In this document: positions 9,590 to 42,845 of the stretch, in pieces
Layout: each line of letters opens with the position of its first letter
How positions within the stretch are numbered: the first letter of the stretch is position 1
The notes under the pieces: generated by a model
What the model saw: only the letters and a program-made list of their open reading frames with translations
The model's database searches: none
Told to the model about the DNA's origin: nothing
NCBI GenBank assembly: GCA_937872895.1
Contig: CALMUP010000028.1
Span: forward strand, 1-64,000
From: an uncultured Verrucomicrobiota bacterium
GTDB taxonomy: Bacteria > Verrucomicrobiota > Kiritimatiellia > CAIVKH01
Direction: 5' to 3'
DNA: 64,000 bases
Position numbers and translations under genes: made by a program

Positions 9590-10189
9590 CTATTGTTTTG
9601 GAAGGTTAAATACCTCTATGTGAGAGTATTCATCTTTGCGGACCAGAAGTCCTCTTGTATTCGGTATGACATGCTGAAACATACCGTTCTCGTCCACCTT
9701 GTAGACAAGTTCAATATAGATATCTCCTTCATGCGGATACGCAGATGCATATGAGCCAGCACCGTAGTAACCGCCTATCTTTTCGCCCGATTTTAGGTGA
9801 AGCAGAACGAATGCTTCTGGGCGCTGGTCAAAAAGGAAGTCCCAGGCTGTTGGATATGGCAATTGAACCCACCGAGTGAATAGCCGCTTCTTGTGCAAGA
9901 AGACAAGTAGGCACGGCCAAAGAATAGGAAATACAAGCAAAACGATGCCCCAGCAGATGTGAAACCATACGGGATGCAAAACAGACAAGTTGGATGCGTT
10001 GACTGGAATCAGGATCGGCAGGGAGAGAATCAAGTTCAGCAAGCCATAAAAGAGACCCTCGAATGCCGCACTACCCCAATCGAGCGCTCGTGCGGGCATC
10101 AAGAGGCGATATAGCTGCATCGATATGAGGCCTGGCAATATCAGCAAAACGACTAGCGTTACGGTGTCTATGTCAAATGGTAGTTCCAC
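9590..10189 (-). CDS. DUF6338-like membrane protein
   Basis: The 199-residue protein has three or four predicted membrane helices in its first 105 residues (LVVLLILPGLISMQLY; FYGLLNLILSLPILIPV; ICWGIVLLVFPILWPCLLVF). A soluble C-terminal domain follows with PTAWDFLF, VLLHLKSGEKIGGYYG and NTRGLLVRKDEYSHIEVF. This arrangement, an N-terminal PGLI-type helix followed by a W-x-PTAWDYFF and GGYYG domain, fits the uncharacterised DUF6338 family. The biochemical role is unknown. It starts 14 bases after attC-like palindrome A and is followed by the small Gly-rich gene. Base composition is lower in GC than the core genes, consistent with horizontal origin. Confidence 0.75.
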   Translation of the reverse strand: MELPFDIDTVTLVVLLILPGLISMQLYRLLMPARALDWGSAAFEGLFYGLLNLILSLPILIPVNASNLSVLHPVWFHICWGIVLLVFPILWPCLLVFLHKKRLFTRWVQLPYPTAWDFLFDQRPEAFVLLHLKSGEKIGGYYGAGSYASAYPHEGDIYIELVYKVDENGMFQHVIPNTRGLLVRKDEYSHIEVFNLPKQ

Positions 10190-10203
10190 GGTTGCTTTCT
10201 ATT

Positions 10204-10263
10204 GCACAACGACCAACCGCAGGGGCGGCGTCTTCGCCGTCCTCCTCGCGGTACATGTTGTGC
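10204..10263 (-). repeat. attC-like palindrome A
   Basis: A 60-base imperfect palindrome on the minus strand with perfect 7-base ends GCACAAC and GTTGTGC. Inside are perfect ACCGC/GCGGT arms and a bulged AGG-CGGCG/CGCCG-CCT stem with an AAGA loop. It begins three bases after the stop codon of the 10267-10701 gene and ends 14 bases before the next gene. The GTTGTGC end resembles the integron R' core (GTTRRRY) except for one position. A lone copy of the same heptamer lies at 10728-10734, just upstream of the preceding gene. Confidence 0.55.
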
Positions 10264-10266
10264 GTC

Positions 10267-10701
10267 TTATTCCCTAATAACTGATATAAGACCATTGGAT
10301 GTTAATGCAATATACTGAAGTAATTCTTTCTCTTTCGGCACCTTGATGACGGCAGATTTTAACCCTGACGAAGTCATCACTTCGCAACGCTTAACATCTG
10401 TCATGGAACCACGTATTGACGCCTCCGGAAATGGATATCGAGAAAAGTACGCCGTAGCGTAATTACTGGTGCCGGTCGATACAGTTGTCCATACATACGG
10501 GAAAACATCTTTGATATCGTCTTTGATCCAATCGATGCGCTGATTTCGCATTCTCGTGAGTTCCAAGAAGTTGAGTAGTGACCCACGAGGTACAGCAACA
10601 CAATCGACATTCTTTTGCCAAGCTTGCAGAATCAAGTAGACGCCGAGGGTTCTATGGCTGCGGCGGTGAGTTTCTCGATACGTAATATCAGGTGCTGGCA
10701 T
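10267..10701 (-). CDS. Hypothetical protein in a cassette-like unit (144 aa)
   Basis: A soluble protein of 144 residues with no recognisable family. It starts with a basic stretch (ETHRRSHRTLG), has a mixed alpha/beta middle (VDCVAVPRGSLLNFLEL; RIDWIKDDIKDVFPYVW) and ends in strands (GLKSAVIKVPKEKELLQYIAL). There is no signal peptide, membrane helix or obvious nuclease or toxin motif. A ribosome binding site (GGGAGAAAT) precedes the ATG. A GTTGTGC heptamer lies 26 bases upstream and attC-like palindrome A begins three bases downstream, so the gene has the layout of a single-gene integron cassette. Such cassettes often encode short proteins without known relatives. Confidence 0.6.
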   Translation of the reverse strand: MPAPDITYRETHRRSHRTLGVYLILQAWQKNVDCVAVPRGSLLNFLELTRMRNQRIDWIKDDIKDVFPYVWTTVSTGTSNYATAYFSRYPFPEASIRGSMTDVKRCEVMTSSGLKSAVIKVPKEKELLQYIALTSNGLISVIRE

Positions 10702-10994
10702 ATTATTTCTCCCTGGTTACTCTTTTCGCACAACAAGTTATTGAGCCGTTTCTTCTGTTAACGCAATGTTTTGAAGCCATATACACAACACCATGACTTA
10801 CAGGCTTAAACGAAGCGGCATTTTAACAGAACGTCAAGAATAACATGAGTTAATTGGTGTCATTGTTTCTTCCGTTTTCGGTTTAAATTGTTCGCCGCGT
10901 TGCCCGCGCTCCACAATCACAGCCTACAAGCGCCCGATGCCTCGCCGCACCGCCATTTTCTGTCCTCGCCCACGCCTTCAGCCCCCAAACCGCT
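10702..10994. other. AT-rich intergenic stretch between cassette-like unit and nuclease gene
   Basis: No gene is supported here. Bases 10735-10890 are clearly more AT-rich than the rest of the window. The only structured item seen is the heptamer GCACAAC (GTTGTGC on the minus strand) at 10728-10734, identical to the ends of palindrome A. No convincing promoter pair was found, although an AT-rich leader would suit one for the minus-strand cassette genes. No integrase gene or attI-like site is evident. Confidence 0.5.
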
Positions 10995-11972
10995 TCACCC
11001 GTAGGGCCCAGGTTCTTGATCAATCTTCAGTTTCTCCTTGATGTATTTCGCGATGTCTTTGGGCACATCATCAAACTCATTCCGGTGAATGCGCTTGGAT
11101 TCGTAGTCGATTTTTACGTCTTGCAGGAATCGGTCGAAATCCCGGTTTTGCTCGCACAGTTTATTGATCGTTTCCCAGTCGAGTTGGGCCCGGCCGCGTG
11201 CCGGGTAGAGGATGCGCGAGGCGTCGATGTCGGTGGGATCGAGTTGGATAATCCCGATGCCGAACGACGAGGCCAGCCGCTCCAGCTCAGCCAGAAATTC
11301 ATCGTCCTGGAGAATATCCACCGCCACCAGATAGCCCTCGTGCGCCCAGGATGAATTCGAGACGGCTTGAAAATAGGATTCCCGGTAATTGGCCTTGTTC
11401 AGTCCCTTCTTGATCTCGAACGAGAACAGCCGCAACGAGTTGTTGTCCGAGAGCCGGTTAAATTCGATTACATTGGGCCGCCAATCATCCAGGGGAAGAT
11501 AGAACCCGACCATGTCAGGGTGAATCCATTCGTTGTACCCGCCCTTGGTCGATTTTTCGTGCATGATCGTCTTGGTGTAGATCGAGCGGCCACGGTTGAA
11601 CGAGGGGTTGGAGTTTGCGTAGTACGTGAGCAGCGGATGCAGATCGCGCTCGTGGTACTCCGTCTTTTTCTCGGCCTTCCTCCCCTCCTCCTTCTCCAGC
11701 TTGCTGATCGCGTCGGCGGGGAGTTCGGCCGCCCGTTCTTTAAGGAAGAATCGTGTCGGTCGCGACCCGACCTTGATAAATAGGCCGTCATCGTTGTCGC
11801 GCACTTCCACATACAGGCGGGCGCCGAGACTTTGCCAAGGCGTCTTGCCGCTCGTTTCCAGCTTGGCCGTGAGTCCACGGTCCTGTCCGACTTTCCATAT
11901 CTCCTGATAGATCATCGGCTGGGTCGCCTGCTTCAGGACGTCGTAAGCCAAGTCAAGGAACGAGTAACTCAT
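10995..11972 (-). CDS. HARE-HTH protein with restriction-nuclease-like domain (COG2958 type)
   Basis: Residues about 3-80 form a HARE-HTH domain (FLDLAYDVLKQATQPMIYQEI, then ARLYVEVRDNDDGLFIKVGSRPTRFFL). This winged helix is found in restriction enzymes and chromatin proteins and has been proposed to sense modified bases. The remainder resembles a PD-(D/E)xK nuclease fold: EWIHPDMVGF (about 150) followed by RLFSFEIKKGLNK (about 185), giving an HPD...EIK core. The combination matches the uncharacterised COG2958 group. Start 11972 is preferred to the longer frame at 12005 because GGAGG lies 10 bases upstream and relatives begin close to FLDLAY. It stands alone with no adjacent methylase, so it may be a modification-dependent nuclease or a solitary defence gene. 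Confidence 0.75.
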   Translation of the reverse strand: MSYSFLDLAYDVLKQATQPMIYQEIWKVGQDRGLTAKLETSGKTPWQSLGARLYVEVRDNDDGLFIKVGSRPTRFFLKERAAELPADAISKLEKEEGRKAEKKTEYHERDLHPLLTYYANSNPSFNRGRSIYTKTIMHEKSTKGGYNEWIHPDMVGFYLPLDDWRPNVIEFNRLSDNNSLRLFSFEIKKGLNKANYRESYFQAVSNSSWAHEGYLVAVDILQDDEFLAELERLASSFGIGIIQLDPTDIDASRILYPARGRAQLDWETINKLCEQNRDFDRFLQDVKIDYESKRIHRNEFDDVPKDIAKYIKEKLKIDQEPGPYG

Positions 11973-33222: not shown

Positions 33223-33309
33223 TGGTGCACTCGAGAGGACTTGAACCTCCACGCCATCGCTGGCATAAGAACCTGAATCTTACGTGTCTGCCAATTCCAC
33301 CACGAGTGC
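33223..33309 (-). tRNA. tRNA-Leu (anticodon CAG)
   Basis: An 87-base cloverleaf on the minus strand: acceptor arms GCACTCG and CGAGTGC, D arm TGGTGGAATTGGCAGACA, anticodon stem TAAGA/TCTTA with loop TTCAGGT, a long variable arm typical of class II tRNAs, T arm GAGGTTCAAGTCCTC, and an encoded CCA end. The anticodon CAG reads the leucine codon CUG, which is very frequent in this genome. Confidence 0.96.
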
Positions 33310-34239: not shown

Positions 34240-34962
34240 TCAGCGACCGACGGCCAGGCGGGCGGCCAGACGCGGTGGGAGACCGGCATCGATGATTTTT
34301 TTCTGGGCGGCCTGGATGTCATACGGCACCCGCCGCAATTCGACCAGGTTGTTGATCATGTCGTAGATCACGTAGGCGGCCCGCGGATCCCCGTCACGCG
34401 GTTGCCCGACACTGCCCACGTTGATGAAGTATTTCTTCCCGACGGTGATGCGGATCTTCGAATACAAACCGAACCGGATGGTGTCGGTCTTTTCGAAGGC
34501 CAGCGGGACATGGGTGTGGCCGAAGAAACACACGGTCGAAGTCTGGTAGCTGAAATTCGCCTCCGCCTCGAGCTTGTCGAACACGTACCCCCACCCCTCC
34601 GGCGTATCCAACGTGCTGTGGACCATGGTAAAGGTTTCCACACGGGCAATGTAGCGCAGGTTGCGGAGGTATTCCACCTGGTCGGGATTCAACTGGCGGC
34701 GGGTCCAGGCGACCACATCGGCGGCCAACGGGTGGAAATTGTCGAGTTTTTCGTCATGCGCACAGTAGTGGTCGTGGTTGCCACGGACAGAGACGGGACA
34801 CAAGGTGCGGATTTTCTCGAGACACTCGATCGGGCTGGCGTTGTATCCCACGATATCCCCGACGCAGGCATAGTGCGTAACGCCCTGACTGGAAGCATCT
34901 TCCAGCACGACGGACAACGCATCCATGTTGGCGTGGATGTCGCCGAGAATGGCATATTTCAT
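34240..34962 (-). CDS. Metallophosphoesterase (YfcE/MJ0936-like)
   Basis: A two-metal phosphoesterase of 240 residues with motifs in order: GDIHANMDAL (D-x-H), VGDIVGYNASP (GD), RGNHDHYC (GNHD), a His at TMVHSTL and FFGHTHVPL (GHTH). The family hydrolyses phosphodiesters; substrates of such small cytoplasmic members vary and cannot be named. There is no signal peptide. It is the first gene of a likely two-gene unit with the secreted hypothetical protein. Confidence 0.92.
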   Translation of the reverse strand: MKYAILGDIHANMDALSVVLEDASSQGVTHYACVGDIVGYNASPIECLEKIRTLCPVSVRGNHDHYCAHDEKLDNFHPLAADVVAWTRRQLNPDQVEYLRNLRYIARVETFTMVHSTLDTPEGWGYVFDKLEAEANFSYQTSTVCFFGHTHVPLAFEKTDTIRFGLYSKIRITVGKKYFINVGSVGQPRDGDPRAAYVIYDMINNLVELRRVPYDIQAAQKKIIDAGLPPRLAARLAVGR

Positions 34963-35056: not shown

Positions 35057-35359
35057 TCAACTGTAGCGAACAGCGAAGTCCGGGTATTCGCCGGAGGCAT
35101 CGGACCAGGTCAGGTCTTCACGGGTTACATAGCGAAAGATGTGGGCCTCGCGGATCTGGTTCAGGAAGGCATAGAGGTCGTGTTCAAATCCCTCGGCGAC
35201 CAGCTTGACCGATCCATCCATGAGGTTGAGCACGAAACCGGTAACCGGATGGTTGCGGGCGATCTCGACCGTGGTGAATCGGAAGCCGACACCCTGTACA
35301 TGGCCCGTGAACAGGGCGGTGACGCGACGGGGTTTCTGGTTTTTTGCTTGTTTGTCCAT
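35057..35359 (-). CDS. acyP: Acylphosphatase
   Basis: A 100-residue enzyme that hydrolyses acyl phosphates. The signature is present near the N-terminus (ALFTGHVQGVGFRFTTVEIA, with the catalytic Arg) and the Asn-containing segment VTGFVLNLMDGSVKLVAEG holds the catalytic Asn. Start 35359 (MDKQAKNQKP) is chosen because AGGAGGG lies a few bases upstream; a longer frame to 35452 would overlap the divergent signal peptidase gene. The gene is monocistronic and divergent from lepB. Confidence 0.93.
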   Translation of the reverse strand: MDKQAKNQKPRRVTALFTGHVQGVGFRFTTVEIARNHPVTGFVLNLMDGSVKLVAEGFEHDLYAFLNQIREAHIFRYVTREDLTWSDASGEYPDFAVRYS

Positions 35360-35405
35360 GCTGCCCTCCTGACCGGATGGCCTAGTTTGGTGTATGGTGA
35401 CCGGT

Positions 35406-35897
35406 ATGACAAGACTCAAGCGGCTTTTCTTCGGACGAAATCCGCGCCGCACCCTGATCCGTGCCGCCGCGCTGGCGGCGGTGAGTTATGCCGTGTTTGG
35501 CCACGTGCTTCGCCCGGTGCGGGTGCAGGGCATCAGCATGGCCCCCACCCTGGTTGACGGCACGATCCATCTGGTAAACCTCGCGGCTTATTGGCGGAAC
35601 GAGCCGCAGCGTGGCGACATGGTGGCGGTGGAGATGCCGGGTCGCCGGGCCTACTACATGAAGCGGGTGCTGGGCCTGCCCGGCGAACAGGTGGGATTCG
35701 CCGAAGGTCAATTGCTGGTGAACGGCGAACCGATGGCAGAACCCTATCTGGCGGCACGCGGTGATTGGAACATGGGGAAACAGCCGGTGCCGGAGGGTCA
35801 TTACTTCATCGCCGGTGACAACCGGCTGACCTCGTTCGAGGGACACACCCTTGGTTTCGTGGAAACGCGGCGAATCGCCGGCCGCTTGTGGAGATGA
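35406..35897 (+). CDS. lepB: Signal peptidase I, short form
   Basis: This membrane serine protease removes signal peptides from exported proteins. One N-terminal membrane segment (LIRAAALAAVSYAVFGHVL) is followed by GISMAPTLVDG with the catalytic Ser, YYMKRVLGLPGE with the catalytic Lys and FIAGDN (box E). At about 163 residues it is near the minimum for the family, like Gram-positive enzymes, and lacks the long insertions of E. coli LepB. ATG 35394 is an alternative start four codons upstream; neither has a strong ribosome binding site. The stop is four bases before the next gene. Confidence 0.9.
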   Translation: MTRLKRLFFGRNPRRTLIRAAALAAVSYAVFGHVLRPVRVQGISMAPTLVDGTIHLVNLAAYWRNEPQRGDMVAVEMPGRRAYYMKRVLGLPGEQVGFAEGQLLVNGEPMAEPYLAARGDWNMGKQPVPEGHYFIAGDNRLTSFEGHTLGFVETRRIAGRLWR

Positions 35898-36432: not shown

Positions 36433-37122
36433 CTAGACCGGGCCGGCGACCTGCTCGAATTCGCGCAACTGCTCGAAGGTGCTGATCTTCAATGGAAAAC
36501 GCGAGGACTTGGCCAGGCGGGCCGCCGGTCCGGTGACCTGCAGGGCCTCGATGACCGTCTTGACGTTCTTGCGTTTCTTGGTCACCACGTCGATCGCCTT
36601 GTGCAGGGTGGCCGCACTTACCGCGACCGGGGAGCCGAATTTCCACACCGAGCCGGGATCAAGGTGTTGCTCGATTACGGCGTTCTTGCCGACGAGCACC
36701 GCCTGTTCCGACAATTCGCGGCCGGCGAATACGACGTCGTGCTTCCGAGCCAGCTTGATCTGCTCGGAGATGTCCGCCGCCGTCAACCCGGGCCGCGAAG
36801 CCTCGTGCACCACGATAACCTTGGCGTCCTTGTCCACGTACTTCATCGCCGCGACCACCGAGGCATACTGGGTGGGACCACTGGGCACCACCTTGCGCAC
36901 CTTGTGGCAACCGAACAATTGGATAACCGGGAGCACCTGTTCGAGCCGGTCGCGCGGTGCGACGATGATCACACCCTCGATCTCCGGGCAATGCTCGAAC
37001 GCGGTAAGGCTGTAGGAAAGAATCGGTTTGTTGTGCAGGTTGAGGAACGCGGTGCAGGTTTCGGGATTGAGCATCTCGTCCTTGCCCCCGGCAATGATCA
37101 CCGCCCACGACGTTGATGTCAT
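36433..37122 (-). CDS. IspD-like nucleotidyltransferase with altered active site
   Basis: The fold and order of segments follow IspD, the CTP:MEP cytidylyltransferase of the MEP isoprenoid pathway: a first strand with AVIIAGG, FLNLHNKPILSYSLTAFEH, VIIVAPRDRLEQV, GPTQYASVVAAMKYV, VIVVHEASRP, and a C-terminal ALQVTGPAARLAK region. Key positions differ. The usual A-x-G-x-G-x-R-M loop is GGKDEMLNPET, the PKQF lysine region reads CTAFL, and HDAARP has become HEASRP. It may have another nucleotide-sugar or polyol substrate, be a poor enzyme, or be inactive. A promoter, a 13-codon leader frame and a palindrome precede it. A canonical ispD was not seen in the window. Confidence 0.75.
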   Translation of the reverse strand: MTSTSWAVIIAGGKDEMLNPETCTAFLNLHNKPILSYSLTAFEHCPEIEGVIIVAPRDRLEQVLPVIQLFGCHKVRKVVPSGPTQYASVVAAMKYVDKDAKVIVVHEASRPGLTAADISEQIKLARKHDVVFAGRELSEQAVLVGKNAVIEQHLDPGSVWKFGSPVAVSAATLHKAIDVVTKKRKNVKTVIEALQVTGPAARLAKSSRFPLKISTFEQLREFEQVAGPV

Positions 37123-37127
37123 AGTGC

Positions 37128-37169
37128 CTATTCCTCTCCCGTGCGCAAATTGCGCATCATCGTTGTCAT
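37128..37169 (-). promoter_or_regulatory. Possible 13-codon leader frame upstream of the IspD-like gene
   Basis: ATG at 37169 opens a frame encoding MTTMMRNLRTGEE and ends in TAG five bases before the start of the IspD-like gene. GGGGAT precedes its ATG. It spans the palindrome at 37142-37156 and could be a translated leader; it may also be chance. Confidence 0.3.
37142..37156. promoter_or_regulatory. Perfect palindrome in the IspD-like leader
   Basis: TGCGCAA-A-TTGCGCA is a perfect 15-base palindrome 20 bases before the IspD-like start codon and about 60 bases after the candidate -10 box, where a repressor site or an RNA hairpin would act. Confidence 0.4.
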
Positions 37170-37216
37170 ATCCCCAAGTCCCTCAACGATTAACTGCCCC
37201 GCTAAACGTCCCCTCT

Positions 37217-37246
37217 ACGCTAGGGAACGGGGATGGACGGGGTCAA
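37217..37246 (-). promoter_or_regulatory. Candidate promoter of the IspD-like gene
   Basis: On the minus strand TTGACC (37246-37241) and TAGCGT (37222-37217) are 18 bases apart. They lie about 95 bases before the IspD-like start, leaving room for the leader frame and palindrome. Confidence 0.4.
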
Positions 37247-37299: not shown

Positions 37300-37983
37300 T
37301 TACGCAGACGAATGGGTTTCCGAAGCGGTCAGGGAAGCCGGAAGGGCGGGTTGAAGCCGGGCGATCCGGTCCATGACCAGGCGGCCGATGGCGTCGAAAT
37401 CCGGCTTGCCGCGCTCGTCGTGCAGCATGAGTTCACCGGGTTGGATGGGTGCGCCATAGGTGATGGTGATCGGGTGTGAGACCATCTTCTTCGCGCCTTT
37501 GGGAAAGGCTTCGAACGATCCCTTGATGTAAACAGGAACAACCGGCACGCCGGCCTTGGAGATCAGGAATCCGATGCCACCCTTGGCCGGTTGCAGGTGG
37601 CCGTCGGTGGTGCGTGTCCCTTCGGGAAACAGGCAGACGCAGGCACCCTTCTTGAGCAGGCCGATGGCGGTCTTGATCGCGCCGACATCGCCTTTCTCGC
37701 GGGACAACGGGACGACGCCAATACGATGGAAGATCCAGCTGACCACCGGATTGCAAAACAGGGTGTCGCGGGCCATGTACCGGACATCGCGCTGCTTGAT
37801 CGGGACACCCAGCAAGGGTGGGTCGAGGTAACTCGCGTGGTTCGAGGCGAGGATGACGCCGCCGGTCGCCGGGACATTTTCGACGCCGTGCACGCTGACC
37901 TTGAATTTCCAAGCGAGCCAGGCACGCAGCACCACACGGCTCACCGCATACAGCCAGGGCAGGTGCTTGGTGCCGTCGGTCAT
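37300..37983 (-). CDS. plsC: 1-acyl-sn-glycerol-3-phosphate acyltransferase
   Basis: The enzyme adds the second acyl chain in phosphatidic acid synthesis at the inner membrane. Signature blocks are present: NHASYLD (H-x4-D catalytic motif, about residue 48), the VPLSREKGD block, FPEGTRTTDG (glycerophosphate binding) and VPVVPVYIKGS. At 227 residues it is normal, with a hydrophobic N-terminal segment (YAVSRVVLRAWLAWKFKV). Its ATG overlaps the cmk stop (ATGA), and cmk-plsC coupling is known in other bacteria. It is the last gene of the aromatic operon. Confidence 0.94.
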   Translation of the reverse strand: MTDGTKHLPWLYAVSRVVLRAWLAWKFKVSVHGVENVPATGGVILASNHASYLDPPLLGVPIKQRDVRYMARDTLFCNPVVSWIFHRIGVVPLSREKGDVGAIKTAIGLLKKGACVCLFPEGTRTTDGHLQPAKGGIGFLISKAGVPVVPVYIKGSFEAFPKGAKKMVSHPITITYGAPIQPGELMLHDERGKPDFDAIGRLVMDRIARLQPALPASLTASETHSSA

Positions 37984-38666
37984 TTCCCGGCCGTGTGTGC
38001 GCGCACGTCGTTGAGGATCAGGTCGACGACCTGGTCGGCTTCCATACCGGTCGAGTCGATGACCTTGGCACCGAGGGCGATCTGGAGGGGCGCGGCCTTG
38101 CGGGTGGTGTCCTTGCGGTCGCGGCGGGCGAGCGAATCAAACACTTCGCCGACATTGCTGTAACCATTCTTCACGGCAAGTTCGTTGTAACGGCGACGCG
38201 CACGCTCCTCGGGATCGGCATCAAGGTAGTACTTGAACGGACTGTCCGGGAACACCACGGTGCCGATGTCGCGGCCTTCCATGGCGAGCGAACCGAGGCG
38301 GGCGGTTTCGCGCAACATGTTCACGAGGAAGGTGCGGACCTCGGGCACGGCGGCGATGTCGCTGACGTGCTCCTGCACGGGCTGGGAACGGATCTGGTCG
38401 CCCGGCTCCTCGCCGTCGATGGTGAACTGAACGGAACCGTCGCGCAGGAAACACTGGAAGTCGATGCGGTTGATCAGCGCGACGACCTGCTGGCTGTCGG
38501 TGGTCTCGATCCCTTCGCGGAGGGCCTTCCAGGTGATCCCGCGGTAGAACGAGCCGGAATCCACGTAGTTGAAGCCGAGTTTGACCGCGGCGATGCGCGC
38601 CACGGTGGACTTGCCGGAAGCGGACGGACCGTCGATGGCGATGACGATGGCGGATTTACTCGACAT
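37980..38666 (-). CDS. cmk: Cytidylate kinase
   Basis: CMP/dCMP kinase of 228 residues. The P-loop IAIDGPSASGKSTVAR lies at the N-terminus, FNYVDSGSFYRGITW follows, and LAMEGRDIGTVVFP matches the conserved EGRDIGT segment; the LID-type arginines lie in EERARRRYNELA. Start 38666 is chosen because the P-loop strand follows directly; the frame runs further upstream antisense-like through aroA. The start overlaps the end of aroA by 11 bases and the stop overlaps plsC (ATGA). Confidence 0.95.
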   Translation of the reverse strand: MSSKSAIVIAIDGPSASGKSTVARIAAVKLGFNYVDSGSFYRGITWKALREGIETTDSQQVVALINRIDFQCFLRDGSVQFTIDGEEPGDQIRSQPVQEHVSDIAAVPEVRTFLVNMLRETARLGSLAMEGRDIGTVVFPDSPFKYYLDADPEERARRRYNELAVKNGYSNVGEVFDSLARRDRKDTTRKAAPLQIALGAKVIDSTGMEADQVVDLILNDVRAHTAGK

Positions 38667-40011
38667 GGCCGCCCAACTCCCGCAGGTGGTCCCAGAAACC
38701 CGGATACGAGGTGTCGACACAGGCCACGTTCTGGATGACCAGCGGGGCTTGGGCGTAAGTGGCGAGGATGGCCATCGACATGGCGATCCGGTGGTCGCCG
38801 TAACTGCGCACCGAAGTGGTCGGAACGATGGGGGCACCGCCCTTGATGATCATGCCGTCGGGGGTCTCCTGCGCATCCACGCCCATCAACCGGAGGTTGC
38901 CGGCCATGGTGGCGATGCGGTCCGACTCCTTCACGCGCAATTCCTGGGCGTCGCGGACCACCGAGGTTCCGTTGATCAAGGCGCCGAGCACGAAGATGAT
39001 CGGCAGTTCGTCGATCAGGTTGGGGATGACATCGCCCCCGACTTCAAACGGCTTCAGCGGACCGCCCTTGACGGTGATGTCGCCGGCCGGTTCGGTGTGG
39101 TTCGTGCCCTTGTATTCCTTGACGGTGATGTTCACTCCGGCCTGCCGAAGCACATCGAGCATCGCAGTGCGGCGCGGGTTGAGGCCGACGTTGCGGATGG
39201 TGACGGAGTGGCCGGGACGTCCGGCGACAGCCACCATCCAGAAGGCGGCGGAGGAAAAATCGCCGGGAATGATGAACGGGCGGGCCTTGATGGCCGGGCC
39301 TTTCGGACCCAACCCCTTGATCTCGATCTGGAGCCCCTTCACCGTGATCGGCAGGTCGAGCGTGGCCAGCAACCGCTCGGTGTGGTCGCGGGTGTGGACC
39401 GGTTCGGTAACGCGGGTGATGCCTTCGGCAAACAAGCCGGCCATCATGATGCACGACTTGACCTGGGCCGAGGCGACGGGCAACAGGTAGTCGATGCCCT
39501 TGAGTTTGCCGCCGGTGATGCGGACCGGAGCGGTCCCCTTCTCGCCGGTCAGCTCGACCTTCGCGCCCATCAGCTCGAGCGGCTCCTTGATGCGTTTCAT
39601 CGGGCGCGAGCGGAGGGACTCGTCGCCAGTGAGTTCGACGGTGATCGGTGAACCGGCGAGCAAGCCGGTGAGCAGGCGCATGCTCGTGCCCGAGTTGCCG
39701 ATGTCCAGCATGCCGGCCGGCTCCATGAACTTGCCGCCGGTGCCCTGGATGTGCAGCTTGTGATCGGGCGTCTCGAACGACCGGGCCCCGAGGGCCTCCA
39801 TCGCCTTGAGGGTATTGATACAGTCCTCGCTCTGGAGGTAATTCTCGACGATGGACGTTCCGGACGCCATGCCGGCCAGCATCGCCACGCGGTGGGAGAT
39901 GCTCTTATCGCCGGGGACCTGGAGGGATCCGTCAATTTTCCCCACCGGGTGGACGATCGCGGAGATCGGGATCGGGGTGGCGCTATTCTTCGCTGTTGTG
40001 TTGATGTCCAT
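38656..40011 (-). CDS. aroA: 3-phosphoshikimate 1-carboxyvinyltransferase (EPSP synthase)
   Basis: The sixth step of the shikimate pathway, joining PEP to shikimate 3-phosphate. Two repeated halves of the EPSP fold are seen, with VPGDKSISHRVAMLAGMASG (the SIS-HR substrate loop), LDIGNSGTSMRLLTG, DESLRSRPM, and in the second half LRVKESDRIATM and YGDHRIAMSMAI. The 451-residue length is normal. The gene overlaps tyrA upstream by 29 bases and cmk downstream by 11 bases, so it belongs to the tightly packed aromatic operon. Confidence 0.96.
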   Translation of the reverse strand: MDINTTAKNSATPIPISAIVHPVGKIDGSLQVPGDKSISHRVAMLAGMASGTSIVENYLQSEDCINTLKAMEALGARSFETPDHKLHIQGTGGKFMEPAGMLDIGNSGTSMRLLTGLLAGSPITVELTGDESLRSRPMKRIKEPLELMGAKVELTGEKGTAPVRITGGKLKGIDYLLPVASAQVKSCIMMAGLFAEGITRVTEPVHTRDHTERLLATLDLPITVKGLQIEIKGLGPKGPAIKARPFIIPGDFSSAAFWMVAVAGRPGHSVTIRNVGLNPRRTAMLDVLRQAGVNITVKEYKGTNHTEPAGDITVKGGPLKPFEVGGDVIPNLIDELPIIFVLGALINGTSVVRDAQELRVKESDRIATMAGNLRLMGVDAQETPDGMIIKGGAPIVPTTSVRSYGDHRIAMSMAILATYAQAPLVIQNVACVDTSYPGFWDHLRELGGHVE

Positions 40012-40864
40012 AAGCTGTAAATGCCTTGCGCGCGTTTTTTCCGTCGCTCAGGGCCCTCTCTATAGCAGATATGTCGTTTTGTTCCAACTGTTCGATCAGG
40101 GCTTCCAGTTTTTGCCGTAAGACGTTCAATTCACTGGCGATAGGCCGGCGGTTGGTGCGGAGGATATCGAGCCAGATGTCCACCCCGCCTTCGGCGATGC
40201 GGGTTGTGTCGCGGTAGCCGGACCCGCAATAGGCGGGCAGATCCGGTGTCAGCCCGGGGCGGCCCACCGTCGCGGCGAGCAAACTGGCCATGACATGCGG
40301 AACGTGGCTGGTCAGCGCGAGAATCTGGTCGTGGGCTTCCGGCGACATCGCGGACACCACCGCGCCGGCGTGTTTCCAGAGGGACTCGACCGCGGCGACG
40401 GCGTCGCGGGGCGTGGCCAGGTCGGGGGTGATCACCACCATGGCCTTCTGGTACAGATCAACCTTGGCCGCCTCCATGCCCTGTTGTTCCGATCCGGCGA
40501 TCGGATGGCTGCCGACAAAGACGGCGTCGCGTCCGGCGAGCAGCTCGCGGCACTGCTGCTGGATCTCGGTCTTGGTGCTGCCGACATCGGTAACCACCAC
40601 CCCCGCCTTGAGGGCATCGCGCACCGCCGCCAACTGGGCGGGAATGGCGAGGATCGGGGCACACAGGACGACGACATCGGCATCGGCCACCGCGGCGGTC
40701 GCTTCGGTATGAAAATGATCCACCGCGCCGCGCTCGACCGCACAGCGTCCACGTTCGGCCGACCGGGTGTGGCCATGCACGACCAGACCGGGACGCGCCC
40801 GCTTCAGCGCCAGGCCAAGCGAGCCGCCCATCAGGCCGAGGCCGAGGATTGCGATGGATTTCAT
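39983..40864 (-). CDS. tyrA: Prephenate dehydrogenase
   Basis: NAD(P)-dependent oxidative decarboxylation of prephenate on the way to tyrosine. The N-terminal Rossmann motif is [20 protein letters not shown], followed by [26 protein letters not shown] and [16 protein letters not shown], the usual catalytic His region. The helical dimerisation domain follows ([31 protein letters not shown]). At 293 residues it has no ACT domain, so feedback inhibition by tyrosine through such a domain is absent. Start 40864 overlaps the aroF stop (ATGA). Confidence 0.94.
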
Positions 40865-41727
40865 GAGTGGGCACCCCACGATTGGACCGACCGGTCAATG
40901 GCCGCGGTGACCCGGCGCAAACTCGCCATCATCGCGTCGAACTGGTCGAAATCGAGGGTCTGTTGGCCATCGGATGTCGCCTTCTTCGGGTCGGGATGCA
41001 CCTCGACCAGCAACAAGTCCGCCCCGGCGGCCACCGAGGCGCGCGCCATGACCGGCACCAGCGCGGTGGCCCCCGTGCCGTGGCTGGGATCGGCGGCGAC
41101 CGGCAGGTGCGAGAGGGACTGAAGTACCGGCACGGCATTCAAATCGAGGGTGTTGCGGGTCGCCCGCTCGAAGGTGCGAATGCCCCGCTCGCAGAGGATC
41201 ACGTTCGGATTGCCCTGGCTCATGATGTACTCGGCGCTCATCAACAATTCCTCGATCGTGCCGGCGATGCCGCGCTTGAGCAGCACCGGCTTGTTGACAC
41301 GCCCGACCGCCTTGAGCAAGGCAAAGTTCTGGGTGTTGCGCGCACCGATCTGCAACACGTCTGACACATCCCCCACCATCTCGACATCCCGCGTGTCCAT
41401 GACCTCGGTGATGAACGGGAGCCCGAATTTCTCGCGCACCTCGATGAGGATGCGCAACCCCTCGACGCCGAGGCCCTGGAACGAATAGGGCGACGTGCGG
41501 GGCTTGAACGCGCCGGCCCGGAGCATCACGGCCCCGGCCGCGCGGATCGCTGCCGCCGTCTCGAACATGATCTCGCGCGTCTCGACCGAACAGGGTCCGG
41601 CCACCACGACCACGCCCTGGTTGCCGCCGATGATCACATCGCGCACGCCGGCCGCATTGACCGGGATGCGGATCTCGGACCGCTCCGGGTGCTGCTGGCG
41701 GCTGGCCAAGGGATACGGAACGGTCAT
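40861..41727 (-). CDS. aroF: 3-deoxy-7-phosphoheptulonate synthase
   Basis: DAHP synthase, the first step of aromatic synthesis. At 288 residues without an N-terminal regulatory extension it resembles the type I-beta/KDO8P-like group. Conserved blocks include [80 protein letters not shown] and LLVEVHPDP. The short form suggests that feedback control, if any, relies on a partner such as the chorismate mutase encoded two genes upstream; this is inference. Start 41727 overlaps the hisC stop (ATGA), and its stop overlaps tyrA (ATGA). Confidence 0.95.
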
Positions 41728-42845
41728 ACCCCACACTCCCGTCCGGCCATGACCGCACGCAAGGCGGCCAGCATTGCCCGGTTTTCCTCCGGCGTACCGA
41801 TAGTGATGCGGATGTACTCGGGCAATTGATACACATCGACCGGCCGGGCGATCACCTTGCGCCGCTGCAACGCCTCGAACACCTTGCGCCCGTTGCCGAC
41901 CTTGACGAGGATGAAATTGGCCACCGAAGGCACGTAGGTTAGACCCATGACGTCGAGGGCGGCACAGACCTCCCGCAACCCGTCGGCGATGATGGTACGC
42001 GTCTGCTCGACGAATTCGTCGTCGGCCAGCGCCGCCAGCGCGGCCGCCTGTGCCATGGCATTGATGTTGAAGGGTTGGCGCACGCGGTGCAACAGGTTCA
42101 CCCCTTCGGCCGGCGCCAGCGCATATCCGATGCGCAAACCGGCCAGGCCGTAGGTCTTCGAGAAGGTGCGCAACACAAACACATTCCGGTTCTCGCGCAC
42201 ATAACGCAGCGTGTCGGGCTGGCGTTCCGGCGGCAGCAATTCAATGTAGGCCTCGTCGAGCACCACCGCGGTGTGCGCGGGAACGTCCTTCATGAAGGCA
42301 TCGAGTTCGCGTCCATCCACCATCGTCCCGGTCGGATTGTTCGGATTCGCGATAAAGACCAGCCGGGTCTGCGGGGTGATCGCCTTGGCCATGGCCGACA
42401 GGTCATGCCGGAAGTCGCGCATCGGTACATGGATCACCGGGGTCCGGTAGAGCGCGGCGACCAATTGGTACACGATGAAGGCGTGTTCGGAGACAACGAT
42501 GTTGGTGGTTTCATCGAGGAAAACATGGCCTAACAACTGGATAATCTCGTTGCTGCCATGGCCGACGAAAACCTGGTTGGCTCCGACATGCAGCTTGGCG
42601 GCGAGCGCCTGGCGTAATTGAAAATTATCGCCATCGGGATAGATGTGCATCGCGCCGGCGGCGGCACGCATCGCCTCGATGGCGTGGGGCGACGGACCGA
42701 GGGCATTCTCGTTGGAGGCGAGTTTGATGATCCCGGCGGGATCGCCAAGGCCAAGCTCGCGGGCAACTTCCTCGATTGGCTTTCCCGGCTGGTACATGCC
42801 GAGCCCACCCACCCATGTTTTCGCAATCTGATTCAACTGATTCAT
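41724..42845 (-). CDS. hisC: HisC-type aminotransferase
   Basis: A PLP-dependent fold-type I aminotransferase of the HisC group. [12 protein letters not shown] is at the N-terminus, then [33 protein letters not shown], and [17 protein letters not shown] with the PLP-binding Lys. HisC enzymes act on histidinol phosphate and often also on phenylpyruvate and hydroxyphenylpyruvate. The position between chorismate mutase and DAHP synthase, with no other his genes near, favours the aromatic role. Start 42845 is taken from the ATGA overlap with the preceding gene; ATG 42857 is also possible. Confidence 0.9.

Follow-up and report, generated by a model that had tools for sequence, protein, structure and literature searches.

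An IspD-family protein that has probably become a pseudoenzyme in a bacterium with mevalonate pathway genes

A 64,000-nucleotide stretch of DNA from an uncultured Verrucomicrobiota bacterium (contig CALMUP010000028.1 – the window in what follows) encodes an IspD-like protein that is probably an inherited IspD turned pseudoenzyme and still under selection. The lineage appears to have swapped the MEP pathway for the mevalonate pathway, losing the old genes and keeping ispD, and the loss of active-site residues with the fold kept suggests a second job for IspD. Absence of pathway genes, residue loss, predicted fold, synteny and selection were all computed. Loss of the arginine and lysine that bind the triphosphate fits a non-catalytic role better than a new substrate.

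Family assignment and isoprenoid genes

The IspD-like frame is real and open, and its 229-residue product (Table 1) is placed in the IspD family by Pfam PF01128 (68.7 bits against a cut-off of 27). Its score with the NCBIfam IspD equivalog TIGR00453 lies far under the cut-off (88.2 versus 181.3 bits), and its score with the NCBIfam ribitol-type model NF001183 is also under the one set there (63.3 versus 166 bits). An AlphaFold2 model based on a 16-sequence alignment has a mean pLDDT of 90.7 and a pTM of 0.88, with the P-loop region (residues 11-20) and the C-terminus as its weakest blocks. The solved folds nearest to the model are TarI and IspD – the first Foldseek match is S. aureus TarI, and the best solved match by VIA-align is T. 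maritima IspD (1vpa, Z 28.5). As modelled, the window protein has the IspD fold. A preliminary description of the gene, made from the letters alone, had proposed that this fold is kept and that the protein is not an ordinary IspD; the first point is borne out by the Pfam profile, the predicted structure and the Z score to IspD, the second by the low TIGR00453 score and by changes at active-site positions that prove to be real.

No canonical ispD turned up in the genome. Within its own assembly, which is 95% complete and not closed, the window gene is the sole PF01128 match above the cut-off, with five weaker matches below it. If the pseudoenzyme reading is true, an IspD call made at the Pfam cut-off misleads in these mevalonate organisms. 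A single-sequence query of the genome contigs with the window protein matched no relative.

Table 1. Features at and around the IspD-like gene (positions in the window)
Feature	Position	Strand	Remarks
Metallophosphoesterase (MPE)	34240..34962	-	Two plus-strand frames and the acylphosphatase frame intervene before ispD here
Acylphosphatase frame	35057..35452	-	Separates orphan ispD from MPE; frame probably starts further in
Orphan IspD-like protein	36433..37122	-	229 aa; IspD fold without Arg20/Lys27 equivalents
13-codon leader frame	37128..37169	-	Peptide not conserved in G001; probably chance
Probable ribosome-binding site GGAGAGG	37133..37139	-	10 bases before ATG; read from the sequence
Inverted repeat TGCGCAA-A-TTGCGCA	37142..37156	.	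Not conserved, near chance expectation
Promoter-like TTGACC-N18-TAGCGT	37217..37246	-	Counterparts in G001 and G004; not listed by consensus scan
plsC-like acyltransferase	37300..37983	-	Directly upstream of orphan ispD
Cytidylate kinase frame	37980..38837	-	Pfam match begins at residue 66, so true start probably further in; aroA, tyrA and DAHP synthase gene follow upstream

The MEP genes searched were dxr, ispE, ispF and ispH, with dxs and ispG outside the set. None of the four gave a match at E 1e-10 in the window genome, which carries a mevalonate gene cluster; its mevalonate genes are those for HMG-CoA synthase (HMGS), HMG-CoA reductase (HMGR), an FMN-dehydrogenase-family protein fitting IDI-2 and two adjacent GHMP kinases. 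With these genes present and the four MEP genes missing, the genome looks like that of a mevalonate organism, not of a MEP organism.

Among 58 relatives, dxr, ispF and ispH co-occur in the same 19. ispE scored above the cut-off in those 19 and in G003, an assembly with 6% contamination, and was sub-threshold in G011, G028 and G039. HMGR is present in 39 relatives: 38 of the 39 without dxr, plus G019, which has dxr. The one relative with neither gene, G044, is 63% complete. Across an even sample of 193 genomes from the class, which is probably Kiritimatiellia, dxr and HMGR are nearly mutually exclusive; dxr alone was found in 70 genomes, HMGR alone in 110, both in three (G019, G106 and G134) and neither in 10.

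All 19 dxr-bearing relatives have an IspD-family gene, as do 32 of the 39 that lack dxr. Class-wide, the corresponding counts are 70 of 73 with dxr (G084, G177 and G178 gave no IspD match), 83 of 110 with HMGR only and 7 of 10 with neither. Since 27 of the 110 HMGR-only genomes, some of them incomplete assemblies, have no match, the role of the retained protein seems dispensable or replaceable. Best IspD scores are at least 172.9 bits in dxr genomes and at most 166.5 in HMGR-only genomes, save for G043 (184.4) and G139 (191.4). Four genomes in which neither dxr nor HMGR was found (G093, G141, G174 and G182; 68-88% complete) score 189-214 and are canonical-like; they stand outside the 80 aligned proteins described below.

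According to the accessible part of a published survey, 541 species combine the mevalonate pathway with a set of MEP genes that is incomplete or missing (PMC10663253); a retained IspD is not discussed in that part, and the term kiritimatiell is absent from the main text. Judged by titles and abstracts, the open-licence literature yielded no report of an ispD orphan or pseudoenzyme alongside a mevalonate pathway and, judged by title, nothing on-topic for an isoprenoid or mevalonate route in Kiritimatiellia.

Active-site changes and selection

We number residues according to E. coli IspD (sequence from NC_000913). In the accessible text of PMC5099578, Arg15, Lys22 and Lys209 of B. subtilis IspD – equivalent to Arg20, Lys27 and Lys213 – are described as strictly conserved residues in contact with the triphosphate of CTP, and Thr at position 215 contacts Arg20 in known structures. 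For the E. coli enzyme, the available part of PMC5020098 credits Lys27 and Lys213 with stabilising the transition state. The window protein has M17 in place of Arg20, T24 in place of Lys27 and E107 in place of Asp106. Further changes turn Thr140 into Q140, Arg157 into P156 and Thr165 into S164, and position 215 is Ser. Arg109 persists as R110 and Lys213 as K212. The preliminary description had listed the G-x-G-x-R-M loop, the PKQF lysine region and the HDAARP motif as changed. The altered Arg20, Lys27 and Asp106 sites stand, but most of the PKQF change is ancestral: the motif already reads DKAF or DKCF in the 19 relatives with dxr, so within it only the loss of the lysine is derived.

Our alignment covers 80 IspD-family proteins – every main match from the relatives (51) and another 29 hand-chosen from the class sample – together with the E. 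coli protein and three second copies. The 80 represent 27 of the 70 proteins from dxr genomes and 53 of the 90 from genomes without dxr (the latter referred to as orphans). Arg20 and Lys27 are both kept in all 27 dxr genomes, and at least one of them is lost in 52 of the 53 others. The exception, G139, is a 79% complete assembly with all eight canonical residues and no dxr or ispF found, and is probably a MEP organism with missing contigs. Scored over eight active-site residues, 25 dxr genomes keep eight and two keep seven; without dxr, zero to five are kept in 51 of 53, G043 (seven) and G139 (eight) making up the remainder. The second copies, found in the dxr genomes G105, G155 and G181 (loci L132, L134 and L136), carry the classical PKQ motif and are TarI-like by motif only.

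The main rival to a pseudoenzyme is the idea put forward in the preliminary description – that the protein is an active nucleotidyltransferase with a rebuilt active site, handling another nucleotide or acceptor. Residues such as Arg215 would then grip the triphosphate in place of Arg20 and Lys27. We judge this possible but rather unlikely. Much of the pocket persists across the 53 genomes without dxr (R109 in 46, K/R213 in 47, H105 in 43, E/D106 in 44, W161 in 52 and P110 in all 53); R109 and the basic residue at 213 are ones that an enzyme, too, would require. Certain substitutions recur. Arg is found at 215 in 30 of these 53 versus 0 of the 27 with dxr, Glu at 106 in 28 versus 0, and Ser at 108 in 37 versus 1, with G043, G032 and G144 among the Ser carriers. 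Three orphans (G039, G127 and G151) keep Arg20 and have lost Lys27. Arg215 in many orphans and Arg20 in these three make a rebuilt active site possible in some of them, but not in the window protein, which has neither the old basic pair nor Arg215. Moreover, the P-loop has gained no new conserved set: without dxr, position 20 is occupied by Q, E, K, R, P, M, D, F and others, and position 27 by T, V, A, P, R, I and others. Thr140, Arg157 and Thr189 have been freed as well. TarI enzymes, which do use another acceptor, keep residues of the Arg20/Lys27 type.

Orphan frames are open in all 32 relatives without dxr, one of them cut by a contig end, and no internal stops were seen in the IspD rows of the relatives or among the class-sample matches listed. 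Pairwise dN/dS is 0.08-0.37 in the 10 orphan pairs, out of 12, that gave a computable dS and 0.08-0.18 in four dxr-genome pairs; these values are rough, as dS is high in most pairs. G71, K74, P111 and a new W6 are invariant in 30 of the 32 relatives without dxr, that is, in all but G043 and G032. The Trp at window position 6 is not invariant in the six aligned members of family f30, and the gap in this column for G077, G078, G127 and G165 reflects a start taken too late. Between the window and G001, a genome of the same genus, identity is 53% for the IspD-like protein, 90% for MPE, 85% for Cmk, 80% for AroA, 62% for PlsC and 56% for LepB. The orphan ispD thus evolves faster than most of its neighbours, yet is under purifying selection.

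Such fast divergence, together with the 27 HMGR-only genomes that have no match, could be read as the trace of a functionless leftover heading towards a pseudogene. The open frames, the low dN/dS, the four invariant residues and the confident fold prediction speak against decay, which we consider very unlikely.

Descent and gene neighbourhood

A maximum-likelihood analysis of 51 rows unites 29 orphans in a single clade (support 100/99) beside the canonical IspDs of the class. G032 and G043 lie nearest to this clade, on the canonical side, and all 31 orphan rows fall on one side of a weaker branch (62/78). The preliminary description had named an ordinary outcome, in which the gene is the only ispD of a MEP organism and clusters with active enzymes; we find instead a mevalonate-type genome whose protein clusters with other altered orphans in the trees. 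E. coli, which alone represents IspD from beyond the class, sits on a very long branch inside the dxr part; with this single outgroup, the topology by itself is no proof of an origin of the orphans within the class. In a second, larger tree, built quickly from 79 rows, four changes of dxr label are needed, for which G139 is one cause, and at least two of the changes are forced by well-supported branches. G034, cut by a contig end, was left out of both trees, and E. coli and the three second copies were left out of the second.

G043 groups with its own genus, g35 (G071, G098 and G134; 98% SH-aLRT), apart from the main orphan clade. Within this genus, G071 and G098 have dxr without HMGR, G134 has both, and G043 has HMGR without dxr or ispF and an IspD in which Arg20 has become Gln. 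The genomes of g35 show the replacement of one pathway by the other at different stages. For G134 (loci L130, L139 and L140) a broken dxr was considered and ruled out, the two reported stops lying past the end of an intact dxr frame. G144 is possibly a further separate case of change, its placement being weakly supported.

Gene order provides the stronger argument. The MPE gene is next downstream of ispD in all 19 dxr genomes of relatives. Of the 32 relatives without dxr, 15 have it no more than 3.5 kb downstream of ispD and a 16th has it at 4.0 kb; in five of the remaining 16, the contig continues for less than 2.4 kb downstream. An acylphosphatase gene separates orphan ispD from MPE in 10 of the 32. 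This shared neighbourhood argues for vertical descent, and points to the orphan descending from the class's own ispD.

The MPE is highly conserved, with a match in 52 of the 58 relatives. As an obligate partner of the orphan it was rejected on a tally covering those 58: G024, G036, G047, G050 and G056 have MPE and no IspD-family match, and G004 (86% complete), G022, G045 and G055 have the orphan and no MPE match at E 1e-30. In G007 the MPE frame (L045, about 9930-11492) reads on to 521 aa, its profile match covering positions 2-224 of 242 with one TAG reported inside. Upstream of the orphan, the window carries a row of plsC, cmk, aroA, tyrA and DAHP synthase genes (37300-41736, minus strand). 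A cmk gene lies upstream of orphan ispD in 11 of the 32 genomes that lack dxr; none appeared in the stretches taken from the 19 dxr genomes, five of which have less than 1.8 kb upstream.

Descent from the class's own ispD, as the synteny has it, also counts against a TarI/ISPD-type CTP:ribitol 5-phosphate cytidylyltransferase. Such an enzyme would agree with the first Foldseek match, and animals keep the relative ISPD for CDP-ribitol, according to the available part of PMC4873967. The NF001183 score is nonetheless well below its cut-off, and the conserved basic P-loop residues of TarI are replaced by M17 and T24, making this identity highly improbable. That the gene is a working IspD whose MEP partners are missing through incomplete assembly can be practically dismissed: the assembly is indeed not closed, but dxr, ispF and ispH are jointly absent from 39 of 58 relatives (38 of them with HMGR), the window genome has HMGS, HMGR and GHMP kinases, and both key basic residues are lost.

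The region ahead of the gene looks ordinary, contrary to the earlier proposal that it carries more regulation than a housekeeping gene usually has. The promoter-like site, the 13-codon frame and the perfect 15-base palindrome on which that proposal was built all exist (Table 1), but none of them distinguishes the gene. In G001 and G004 the promoter-like site has counterparts, 121 and 135 bases ahead of the start, respectively. The pattern TTGACN-N15..19-TANNNT occurs in the 260 bases preceding the gene for 11 of the 19 ispDs from dxr genomes and for 18 of the 32 from the others (mean by chance, 0.78 of 51 in 100 mononucleotide shuffles). Because it stands equally before canonical ispDs, this promoter type is not special to the window gene. 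A consensus promoter scan listed other sites, at 37281-37252 and inside the gene start. The upstream stretches of G001 and G004 lack the palindrome, and each carries a different, unrelated repeat with 7-base arms. Mononucleotide shuffling of the leader gave a repeat of equal quality in 7% of 2000 cases, and 50 of 349 window tiles contain one. At the Rfam gathering threshold only a tRNA matched in the window, where a tRNA-Leu (CAG) gene lies at 33223-33309 on the minus strand. A complex leader was rejected on these grounds.

Proposed role and comparison with known systems

We favour an inherited pseudoenzyme as the explanation of the window gene. A lineage, probably of Kiritimatiellia, would have taken up the mevalonate pathway in place of the MEP pathway and lost dxr, ispE, ispF and ispH, and ispD would have stayed near its old neighbour with its fold kept. 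The side chains lost would be those that grip the CTP triphosphate and stabilise the transition state (Arg20 and Lys27); Thr140, Arg157 and Thr165 are altered as well in this protein. The pseudoenzyme would act by binding rather than by cytidylyl transfer, and what it binds may be a protein partner, or else a nucleotide or phosphorylated ligand sitting on the H-E/D-x-S-R-P pocket floor, which survives. Binding would then be a second role that the IspD of the class already had before the pathway was lost.

The lack of catalysis, the second role and the age of that role we infer from several observations taken together – retention in most pathway-losing genomes, recurrence in two or more lineages, loss of one or both residues of the basic pair, selection, and the surviving fold and pocket floor. 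As expected of a pseudoenzyme derived from IspD, catalytic residues have been lost from a protein whose frame and predicted fold remain under purifying selection.

A wider version of this account, extending to the whole class, is one that we advance tentatively and with less confidence. The IspD of the class would have had a prior non-catalytic role; the MEP pathway would have been lost independently at least twice (in the main orphan clade and in G043 of genus g35, perhaps also in G144); and in every case ispD would have been the one searched MEP gene to be kept, turning towards a pseudoenzyme through recurrent active-site changes. If this is true, IspD is a moonlighting protein, perhaps beyond this class, and a core target of drugs and herbicides has a hidden second function that persists after its pathway is gone. 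The genomes of the class would then form a graded natural series in which to look for that function, running from MEP only, through both pathways, to mevalonate only with fresh loss and mevalonate only with deep loss.

Proteins of related fold provide points of comparison. Non-catalytic subunits of the GMPPA type keep a nucleotidyltransferase fold for regulation after catalysis is lost. The orphan differs from them in that no catalytic paralogue was seen, the genome having no other PF01128 match above the cut-off. TarI and ISPD (CRPPA) resemble it as IspD-fold proteins kept outside the MEP pathway. They are active CTP:ribitol 5-phosphate cytidylyltransferases, whereas the orphan sits at the class's own ispD locus and is without the basic pair. 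From canonical IspD the orphan differs in the changed equivalents of Arg20, Lys27, Thr140, Arg157 and Thr165, and in belonging to a genome with mevalonate genes and without the four other searched MEP genes. It is to canonical IspD, all the same, that it is alike in its whole-length fold, family profile, scattered structural residues and gene neighbourhood.
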